A stretch of 64,000 nt of DNA, taken from positions 1 to 64,000 of the forward strand of contig JABDAV010000005.1 of the NCBI GenBank assembly GCA_013289015.1, written 5' to 3'. This document shows positions 45,551 through 51,773 of this stretch, in pieces. How positions within the stretch are numbered: position 1 is the first letter of the stretch; every line of letters starts with the position of its first letter. The position numbers and the translations under genes were made by a program. The stretch comes from Bacteroidota bacterium (GTDB lineage Bacteria > Bacteroidota > Bacteroidia > Chitinophagales > Chitinophagaceae). Below the pieces are notes generated by a model, which was given only the letters and a program-made list of their open reading frames with translations, had not been told where the DNA came from and searched no databases.

Positions 45551-45583
45551 AGAAAAAAAGCCCTTCCGTGGAAACGGAACGGC
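45551..45583 (-). terminator. Minus-strand terminator of the small lipoprotein gene
   Basis: Stem GCC-x-TTCCGT / ACGGAA-x-GGC with a GGAA tetraloop (45560-45583), followed by seven T residues on the minus strand. It lies about 100 bases past the lipoprotein stop. Confidence 0.8.
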
Positions 45584-45683: not shown

Positions 45684-45884
45684 TTATTTTTTTGTTGAGT
45701 CTTTCTTAGTAGAATCAGTCATCATCTTAGTTGTGTCCATACCCATCTTTGAAGAATCTGGGCTCATCGTAGTTGAAGAATCAGGACTCATTGTAGTTGC
45801 AGAATCACTGGTAGTGGTAGTGCTGGAGCTGCTGTTACAGGCAGCGAAAGTGCCAATAGCTAAAACGATCAAAAGCTTTTTCAT
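45684..45884 (-). CDS. Small Ser/Thr-rich lipoprotein
   Basis: 66 residues: a short signal peptide with lipobox IGTFAAC (Cys16), followed by low-complexity sequence with a repeated SATTMSPDSSTTMSPDSS pattern and a Lys/Asp/Thr-rich end. A lipid anchor and a disordered surface tail are expected. It is divergent from the ECF sigma gene, and the two promoters share the motif GGGTTAC plus GTATTAAAA, so it is a likely target of that sigma factor. A similar lipoprotein lies at 51435-51728. Confidence 0.8.
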   Translation of the reverse strand: MKKLLIVLAIGTFAACNSSSSTTTTSDSATTMSPDSSTTMSPDSSKMGMDTTKMMTDSTKKDSTKK

Positions 45885-45913: not shown

Positions 45914-45943
45914 TTTAATACTCAAACACAGATAAGGTAACCC
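45914..45943 (-). promoter_or_regulatory. ECF-type promoter motif for the lipoprotein gene
   Basis: On the minus strand GGGTTAC (45937-45943) is followed after 15 bases by GTATTAAAA. The same two boxes, with a 16-base spacer, precede the divergent sigma gene. Confidence 0.55.
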
Positions 45944-45983
45944 ATGCTTAAAAGTTTTTTTATAAAATAATGAATAAAAAATT

Positions 45984-46015
45984 GGGTTACTTTTAACCCC
46001 TATCAGGTATTAAAA
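45984..46015 (+). promoter_or_regulatory. ECF-type promoter motif for the sigma-factor gene
   Basis: GGGTTAC (45984-45990), a 16-base spacer and GTATTAAAA (46007-46015) end eight bases before the GTG start, so the mRNA would have almost no leader. GGGTTA also pairs with TAACCC (45994-45999) as a small palindrome, which a repressor could use instead. Confidence 0.55.
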
Positions 46016-46023
46016 ACTCACAG

Positions 46024-46587
46024 GTGAAGGGCGATCCGAACGAACAAGTTTTATTAAAGGCATTAGCAAACAACGATTCGAAAGCAGCAGAAACCATTTA
46101 CAAGGACAATTTTAATATGATATTAAATTTTATCCTTAATAATAATGGTTCTTATGATGAAGCACGGGATATTTTTCAGGAAGCCATGATCACGCTCTAC
46201 CAAAAAGCCAAATCAGGATCATTTGTTCTTACAAGTCAAATTAAGACCTACCTGTATTCGGTTTGCAGGAGATTATGGCTTAAACGCCTGCAGCAACTTG
46301 GTAAAACAACTAATGGAATTGAGAACTATGAAACCGTTGTTGTAGAAGATGATGTAGAAATACATGAAAGGCAAAATGCAGAGTTGGGTATTATGGACAG
46401 GGCGTTGAATAGTTTGGGAGAACCCTGCAAAAGCCTGCTGGAGGCTTTTTACATAGAAAAGAAAAGTATGGATCAGATTGCATTGATGTTTGGTTATACC
46501 AATGCAGATAATGCAAAAAATCAAAAATATAAATGTCTTATTCGTTTAAAAAAATTATTCTTTTCGCAATATAATATAGGAGAGTGA
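46024..46587 (+). CDS. ECF-type RNA polymerase sigma factor
   Basis: 187-residue sigma-70 family protein of the extracytoplasmic-function type. Region 2 spans about residues 28-95 (ARDIFQEAMITLYQKAKSG is the 2.2-2.3 helix; LTSQIKTYLYSVCRRLW is region 2.4) and region 4 about 125-180 (LEAFYIEKKSMDQIALMFGY is the helix-turn-helix). No ATG is available near the family start; a GTG at 46024 begins the protein. Its stop overlaps the ATG of the anti-sigma/protease gene by one base. It probably controls its own gene and the divergent lipoprotein gene. Confidence 0.88.
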   Translation: MKGDPNEQVLLKALANNDSKAAETIYKDNFNMILNFILNNNGSYDEARDIFQEAMITLYQKAKSGSFVLTSQIKTYLYSVCRRLWLKRLQQLGKTTNGIENYETVVVEDDVEIHERQNAELGIMDRALNSLGEPCKSLLEAFYIEKKSMDQIALMFGYTNADNAKNQKYKCLIRLKKLFFSQYNIGE

Positions 46588-47696
46588 TGGAAGATATTCT
46601 TTTATTAAATTCAATTGAACGCTATCTTGAAGGAAGGATGCTTGAAGAAGAAAAGAACTTTTTCGAAGCGTTACGCCAGAATAACCCGGCTATTGATCAA
46701 ATGGTGGTTGAACATAAGCTTTTTCTTCACCACATGAATGAATACGCCGACGTTGAAAATTTTCGTGATTCCATTCATACCATACATTCAAAACTGTCTG
46801 CTACCGGCGAGGTCAGAAACAGTGAAGAGCCCGAAGGTTTTACAGGCAAGGTTGTTCAGCTTTGGCACCGTTACAGGAAAGTTACCGCTATCGCTGCTTC
46901 CATTGCCTGTATCACCGCTTTATTCATTAGTGCATTGGCAATGTACTTTTCACCTTCAGTTGATAAAACCCAATTGGAACGTTTAAGCAGAGATATAGCT
47001 GCTATAAAAGCCAATCAACAGGTTACCAACAATACGCTTAAAGAAGTTGCCGAGCCAAAAATTCCAAAAGGCGCTATTGTTAAAACAGGCGGCACTGCTT
47101 TTTTAATTGATGGCAAAGGCTATCTTGTAACAAGCGCTCACGTGCTTGCAGGAAGCGGAGCTATCGTAACAGACAATAATGGCAATGAATACAATTCAAA
47201 AATCTTATCTATAGATCAGTCAAAAGATCTTGCTATCCTTAAAATTGACGATAAAGATTTTAAGCCTGTAAAAAATCTTCCTTATGCCATTCGCCGCAAT
47301 CAGCCTGATCTTGGTGAAGAACTTTTTACGTTAGGCTATCCGCGTGATGAGATCGTTTATAACATGGGCTATTTAAGTGCAAAAACCGGTTACAAAGGCG
47401 ACACAACAAGCTGTCAGCTTTCACTTACCGCAAATCCAGGTAACTCCGGCGCACCTGTATTTAATAAGAATGGTGAAATAGTAGGTATTATCACCACAAA
47501 ACAAACACAAGCTGAAGATGTGGTGTTCGCGCTTAAATCGAATAATATTTTCAAATTGATTGACAGTTTAAGAACAACAGACACTTTTTTCAAAAATGTT
47601 AAGCTGCCGACTTTTTCTACTTTAAAAAATATGGACAGAGTTAGCCAGGTTAAGAAAGCAGAGAGCTATGTGTTCTTTGTAAAAGCTTATAACTAA
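46587..47696 (+). CDS. Membrane protein fusing anti-sigma-like region and trypsin-like serine protease
   Basis: 369 residues. The cytosolic N-terminal part (about 1-70) has the pattern of Bacteroidota anti-sigma adaptors (IERYLEGRMLEEEKNFFEAL). One membrane helix follows (about 100-121), then a short heptad-like stretch (LERLSRDIAAIKANQQ) and an S1C/DegP-like protease domain (about 160-330). The catalytic triad is complete: His185 in TSAHVLAG, Asp214 in SKDLAILK and Ser287 in NPGNSGAPV. There is no PDZ domain. The gene is coupled to the ECF sigma gene. A sigma-binding N-terminus and a periplasmic protease in one chain recall RseA and DegS joined together. Anti-sigma function is inferred from context and pattern. 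Confidence 0.83.
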   Translation: MEDILLLNSIERYLEGRMLEEEKNFFEALRQNNPAIDQMVVEHKLFLHHMNEYADVENFRDSIHTIHSKLSATGEVRNSEEPEGFTGKVVQLWHRYRKVTAIAASIACITALFISALAMYFSPSVDKTQLERLSRDIAAIKANQQVTNNTLKEVAEPKIPKGAIVKTGGTAFLIDGKGYLVTSAHVLAGSGAIVTDNNGNEYNSKILSIDQSKDLAILKIDDKDFKPVKNLPYAIRRNQPDLGEELFTLGYPRDEIVYNMGYLSAKTGYKGDTTSCQLSLTANPGNSGAPVFNKNGEIVGIITTKQTQAEDVVFALKSNNIFKLIDSLRTTDTFFKNVKLPTFSTLKNMDRVSQVKKAESYVFFVKAYN

Positions 47697-51434: not shown

Positions 51435-51728
51435 TTATTGTTTTTTTGAACTGTCTTTGCTTCCTTTTGTAGTATTATACGTTTTTTGTGTACCTGTATT
51501 TGGCGTAGCTTCAGAACCATTAATAGTATCTGTTCCAATAGTATTTGAAGAATCAGGCGTTGGTATATGCTGACGCTGATCAGGGTGATCATCCATTGCA
51601 TCAGATGTTGGATTAGCTGAAGAGCTGTCATTAACATCAAGCGCTGAGCTTTTACTTGTTGAATTATTACATGCTGCCATCATTGAAACACTAAAAAATG
51701 ATATCAATATAAATTTAAATGCTTTCAT
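51435..51728 (-). CDS. Small Ser/Thr/Asp-rich lipoprotein
   Basis: 97 residues from the ATG at 51728: signal peptide with lipobox VSMMAAC (Cys near residue 20), then low-complexity Ser/Thr/Asn/Asp sequence (SSANPTSDAMDDHPDQRQ) ending in a Lys-rich tail KGSKDSSKKQ. Similar in style to the lipoprotein at 45684-45884, which also ends in TKK-type residues. Function is unknown. A longer frame starting at 51764 lacks a signal peptide and is less likely. Confidence 0.75.
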   Translation of the reverse strand: MKAFKFILISFFSVSMMAACNNSTSKSSALDVNDSSSANPTSDAMDDHPDQRQHIPTPDSSNTIGTDTINGSEATPNTGTQKTYNTTKGSKDSSKKQ

Positions 51729-51773
51729 ATCTTTTTTAAACAATAATCTCAAACATTGTTCCACAATAGTTAA

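Follow-up and report, generated by a model that had tools for sequence, protein, structure and literature searches.

Within the window, by which we mean the whole 64,000-nucleotide stretch of Chitinophagaceae DNA analysed here, the intergenic region between a small lipoprotein gene and an ECF sigma factor gene carries two oppositely oriented copies of a two-part motif, which are very probably divergent ECF-type promoters (-35 GGGTTAC, a spacer of 15-16 bases, -10 GTATWAA) recognised by the product of the sigma gene itself (46024-46587). This sigma factor would accordingly be autoregulated and control a small envelope regulon. We infer its binding to these sites from features that can be read directly in the DNA, namely the sites, their conservation, their co-distribution with the sigma clade and the recurring classes of target genes. 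An autoregulated ECF sigma factor sharing a -35/-10 pair with its target had been proposed in an earlier sequence-only reading, and the proposal gains support from the geometry of the sites, their conservation, their specificity to orthologs and the coherence of the predicted targets. Sequence and conservation both fit a promoter common to the sigma gene and the genes it is predicted to control.

Two divergent sites and their conservation

On the minus strand, an exact match to GGGTTAC-N15-GTATTAAAA runs from 45943 to 45913 and represents the predicted lipoprotein promoter (-35 GGGTTAC, 15-nt spacer, -10 GTATTAA(AA)), with a distance of 28 nt from the last A of GTATTAAAA to the ATG. On the plus strand, an exact match to GGGTTAC-N16-GTATTAAAA at 45984-46015 represents the predicted sigma-gene promoter, which has the same two boxes, a 16-nt spacer and 8 nt from GTATTAAAA to the GTG start. 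The sequence-only reading had described both elements in both directions from one intergenic region, with spacers of 15 and 16 bases, and was exact in this; the interval that it assigned, 45914-46015, is correct at its right end and one base short at its left, where the site extends to 45913.

The genome search that it had proposed for the two-part motif returns the exact pattern at these two sites only. The draft genome (G000; 3.59 Mb, 66% complete) has two exact matches, both of them in the ECF sigma/lipoprotein intergenic region; no third exact copy of GGGTTAC-N15/16-GTATTAAAA was found in it, and the number of exact matches expected by chance from shuffles of the window is 0.00. Looser matching loses this resolution: with up to three mismatches, the genome-wide counts are 67 against 88 in the reversed-pattern control for the 16-base spacer and 64 against 106 for the 15-base spacer, and in the absence of any excess over the control such a search is uninformative. 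It drowns the signal, and comparison with relatives was therefore needed. The abundance of three-mismatch matches is also what might suggest that the resemblance between the two sites arose by coincidence in a short A+T-rich spacer, but this is extremely improbable and already refuted by the comparative data, given the zero expectation for exact matches and the retention of the pair across the family at 36-100% sigma identity.

The main comparison covered 70 sigma loci from Chitinophagaceae genomes spanning that identity range, with a site threshold of at least 12/14. Sites reaching the threshold are present on the sigma side in 68 of the 70 loci and on the lipoprotein side in 65, and across Chitinophagaceae no part of the intergenic region is better conserved than the two-part motif. 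In these 70 loci the information content is about 2.0 bits at each position of GGTTAC and about 1.9-2.0 bits at most positions of the -10 box, whereas it stays at about 0-0.4 bits over most of the spacer, except for a run of T after the -35 box. The -10 core kept in relatives is GTATTAA/GTATAAA, the terminal AA of GTATTAAAA not being retained. Sigma-side spacers of 15 and 16 bases are equally common (34/34), lipoprotein-side spacers are mostly of 15 (53 vs 12 with 16), and a slight difference is seen immediately after the -35 box, with CTTT in lipoprotein promoters and TTTT in sigma promoters. The boxes point towards each gene, and the distance from motif to start is 9-18 nt or 19-49 nt. An independent set of 58 further loci from named genomes, previously unused, gave the same picture, with the sigma site in 57 loci, both sites in 55 and the reversed-pattern control in none.

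In the source genome, the sigma-side -35 box and the bases following it (45984-45999) form an inverted repeat, GGGTTACTTTTAACCC, of the kind expected if the motif were the operator of a separate DNA-binding regulator and not a sigma recognition element. Such an operator is highly improbable. A dimeric operator built on this repeat was rejected, as relatives do not keep its second arm and their spacer holds about 0.1-0.4 bits beyond the T-run; the lipoprotein site, moreover, has no repeat, and two fixed boxes 15-16 nt apart, oriented towards each gene and lying within the distances from the starts given above, are better explained by a promoter.

The sigma factor, the lipoprotein and the operon partner

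The gene at 46024-46587 (+) encodes an ECF (group 4) sigma factor of 187 aa with a GTG start. It matches TIGR02937 with 66.6 bits (cut-off 42.9) over residues 21-177 and, in sigma region 2, the Pfam Sigma70_r2 family (PF04542) with 26 bits (cut-off 24); the match of sigma region 4 to PF08281 is weak, at 12 bits, and lies under the cut-off of 25.7. A C-terminal block, YTN-NAK-QKYKCL, is nearly invariant among orthologs, which were detected in 137 of 147 family genomes; close relatives occur in the named genomes of Sediminibacterium, Hydrotalea, Filimonas, Ilyomonas, Parafilimonas and other Chitinophagaceae. The TIGR02937 match, together with a lipobox in the divergent product, bears out the earlier identification of this gene pair as an ECF sigma factor and a lipoprotein.

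GTG is the sole start codon upstream of the conserved sigma N-terminus and lies 10 nt after GTATTAA. Across the family the sigma gene almost always starts with GTG or, rarely, TTG, and not with ATG, at the conserved position about 10 nt after the -10 box, and the independent set contains 57 GTG starts and one TTG. ECF transcription usually starts several bases downstream of the -10 box, which would leave the sigma mRNA practically without a leader; it probably begins at the GTG or a few bases before it, being leaderless or nearly so. Since leaderless mRNAs make up only 5.5% in Flavobacterium psychrophilum (PMC9723704), the conservation of a near-leaderless GTG start is notable, and this arrangement may limit basal sigma synthesis.

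The divergent gene (45684-45884, -) encodes a 66-aa lipoprotein, MKKLLIVLAIGTFAAC..., whose translation has a lipobox, is rich in S, T, D and K and ends in KK. In relatives the divergent gene nearly always encodes a small lipoprotein of low-complexity S/T/D/A/K sequence. Lipoproteins of the same type stand behind the divergent site in 63 loci; they measure 55-116 aa, mostly 55-80, and end in K in 43 and in H in 12 of the 63. At 45564-45579 (-), TTCCGTTTCCACGGAA followed by GGGCTTTTTT is likely, though on weak evidence, to form an intrinsic terminator for the mRNA of the lipoprotein gene; it comes from a consensus scan that found no more terminators than in shuffles. The window also contains a second lipoprotein-like ORF rich in D, S, T and N (MKAFKFILISFFSVSMMAACNNS...) at 51435-51764 (-), with no exact motif upstream.

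The ATG of the next gene overlaps the sigma stop codon (TGATG, 46587). This operon partner (46587-47696, +) is a predicted single-pass membrane protein of 369 aa with an HtrA/DegS-like protease, an assignment based on PF13365, an AF2 model with a mean pLDDT of 84.8 and a fold match. The trypsin-fold protease domain, residues 165-331 (47079-47579, +), matches PF13365 (Trypsin_2) with 80.7 bits, as do all 32 aligned orthologs, in which H185, D214 and S287 are invariant; the fold aligns with the protease domains of DegS-deltaPDZ and HtrA1 at Z 19-20. A PDZ domain has no match in any of the 32 orthologs, the AF2 model ends soon after the protease fold, and the score against the NCBIfam DegS equivalog is 55 vs a cut-off of 423. 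The predicted transmembrane helix, residues 93-121 (46863-46949, +; AIAASIACITALFISALAMYF), is hydrophobic in sequence and helical in the AF2 model, where a linker helix lies between it and the trypsin fold.

Residues 1-72 (46587-46802, +), modelled as three helices (2-15, 20-32 and 34-72), form a putative cytoplasmic domain. These approximately 72 N-terminal residues are likely an anti-sigma domain, given their position directly behind the sigma factor, the topology of the protein and weak profile hits. The latter comprise sub-threshold matches to zf-HC2 in 8 of 30 members (best E 0.011), weak RskA_N matches among orthologs and weak matches to anti-sigma models in two members; no match of the domain to known anti-sigma families is significant. 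PPAR gamma-type matches from a sequence search against solved structures were at chance level and were discarded, no PDB match being significant, and in a fold search with the whole model all matches were taken by the protease domain. Sequence and model together suggest a partner in which an HtrA/DegS-like protease that lacks PDZ is preceded by a single membrane helix and, ahead of it, by a putative anti-sigma domain.

Distribution of the motif and the predicted wider regulon

With 17 first-look sigma candidates in the source genome, and with ECF specificities that can overlap, the two promoters might be read by another ECF sigma factor of the same genome, the one encoded at 46024-46587 having a different regulon. 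This is very unlikely in view of where the motif occurs. Orthologs of this sigma gene, down to about 40% identity, almost all have the motif directly before them, and almost none of the paralogous ECF genes examined has it upstream. Of 16 ECF relatives from outside the family, which are at most about 41% identical, 15 lack the promoter-proximal site; the exception (L180) has an imperfect one with two mismatches, and at one locus of another family (L179) an exact match lies on the divergent strand. Seven of 118 genomes examined phylum-wide match, three of them Chitinophagaceae and four belonging to two other families of the class, and the four sites in the latter precede the same kind of lipoprotein. 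Family genomes in which the sigma factor is not detectable mostly lack the motif too. The exceptions are an incomplete genome (G046), which has the motif with the lipoprotein, and two genomes (G079, G105) in each of which a lone match has no target-like gene behind it. As judged from these genomes, the motif and the sigma clade share their distribution. Reading by the encoded sigma factor itself is further favoured by covariation of the two sites: where one side of a locus has an unusual -10 box, the other side tends to have it too (GAATTAA in L063; GGATWAA in L076 and L077; permutation p 0.004, in a test that ignores shared ancestry), as is expected if one protein reads both sites.

At two of these four loci from outside Chitinophagaceae (L206, L207, in another family), a sigma factor of the same type adjoins two or three tandem lipoprotein genes. 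Several of these genes have their own copy of the motif, and two L207 copies look identical.

The predicted regulon beyond the locus was delineated by pattern searches. The strict pattern GGGTTACYTTN11-13GTATTAA gave 50 matches vs 2 in the reversed control across 60 genomes, far from the many random genomic matches that the sequence-only reading had named as the outcome that would speak against it; a relaxed pattern gave 160 vs 29 across 75 genomes (hand-summed from tabulated counts). Matches off the locus recur before homologous genes, which fall into four classes. The first consists of extra lipoprotein copies. The second is a secreted beta-domain protein of 136-146 aa, and it includes the source genome, where a third site (G000:C8:45792-45820; L014, L167) lies 119 nt before the gene for a 143-aa secreted single-beta-domain protein; homologs likewise follow the motif in nine further genomes. 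The model of this protein, of moderate confidence (pLDDT 72), shows a signal-peptide region of low confidence followed by a single beta domain, and Foldseek matches it to beta-sandwich domains (best E 0.004), no more specifically than Ig-like. Five other candidates for a third site in the source genome (C173:226, C1:39409, C9:16345, C34:12497 and C48:15824) are coding or do not precede a recurring target, and C8:45792 alone was kept.

The third class is a 96-aa AMPK/CBM48-like protein (AMPK1_CBM 32.5 bits, cut-off 26.8). The copy in the source genome (C61:21265) has no acceptable motif upstream, and this target is therefore not claimed for that genome. The protein appears as a target in seven genomes (L148, L150, L162, L165, L166, L121 and L122); its domain is of a glycogen-binding type, and a signal peptide is not apparent. 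The fourth class is a protein of about 48 aa (MKNLKRLFFDKEVVSQIRSAKV...), found in two genera (L124, L161), one of which is the window's own genus; no Pfam match was found for it. No T9SS genes are among the targets seen.

A proposed circuit and its relation to known systems

In the circuit that we propose, the active sigma factor on core polymerase would read GGGTTAC-N15/16-GTATWAA and transcribe its own operon, consisting of the sigma gene and the gene for the membrane protease with its putative anti-sigma domain, in one direction and the small lipoprotein gene in the other. It would also drive a few unlinked genes, in the source genome at least that of the secreted beta-domain protein. When no signal is present, the sigma factor would be held at the membrane by the first approximately 72 residues of the partner, and it would be set free through an event in the periplasm that the HtrA-like domain either senses or carries out. 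The transcription step is strongly backed by the genome comparison, and around it we infer the steps of holding and release. The products would be mainly lipoproteins and secreted proteins, which suggests a response concerned with the cell envelope. A tentative and rather doubtful elaboration is a one-protein RseA-DegS relay, in which the cytoplasmic N-terminus of the partner would sequester the sigma factor, and the fused HtrA-type domain would cleave the partner itself or a neighbouring copy in the periplasm to start release, while the leaderless GTG-start sigma mRNA would keep basal levels low.

The arrangement recalls the RpoE (sigma E)-RseA-DegS system of Escherichia coli, in which an ECF sigma factor likewise autoregulates its operon, a single-pass membrane regulator is encoded downstream and envelope proteins are among the targets (PMC8103513). 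The fold match of the partner adds a DegS-type periplasmic protease fold to this likeness, but here the protease and the putative anti-sigma domain are one polypeptide, without PDZ and with no RseB seen, and the promoter is unlike that of RpoE. The sigma E promoter is GGAACTT/TCAAA, as opposed to GGGTTAC/GTATWAA. The Das/Dma system of Bacteroides, an ECF21 sigma factor with a dual membrane-spanning anti-sigma factor, offers a second parallel, as a Bacteroidota ECF sigma factor is followed by a large membrane-spanning anti-sigma factor (putative in our case); it is linked to outer-membrane physiology and has lipoprotein-type targets such as NigD (PMC13088901, PMC9308784). In Dma, however, a disordered tether leads to a C-terminal outer-membrane beta-barrel, whereas the partner described here has no such barrel and ends in a trypsin-fold protease. 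The system thus resembles both the sigma E circuit and Das/Dma but is neither, as its promoter differs and its partner is not RseA, DegS or a beta-barrel Dma. The ECF promoters of PorX-SigP and Flavobacterium SM6, likewise from Bacteroidota and likewise with a -10 box of the CGT type (PMC9723704), are also comparable, but the motif GGGTTAC/GTATWAA and the target set differ from theirs. Among the papers listed by literature searches, none contained the motif string or described the sigma/protease operon.

Little is known of the promoter codes of Bacteroidota ECF sigma factors. Here, genome sequences are by themselves enough to read a consensus promoter, a circuit of autoregulation and a limited regulon throughout one family. 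Cultured carriers, including Sediminibacterium salmoneum, Hydrotalea sandarakina and Filimonas zeae, make the predictions directly testable. Bacteroidota ECFs lie beside a recognised class I anti-sigma gene in 6% of cases vs 32% overall (PMC7406223), and the operon suggests a class of regulator, a putative anti-sigma domain fused to an HtrA-like protease, that is missed by searches for anti-sigma domains.
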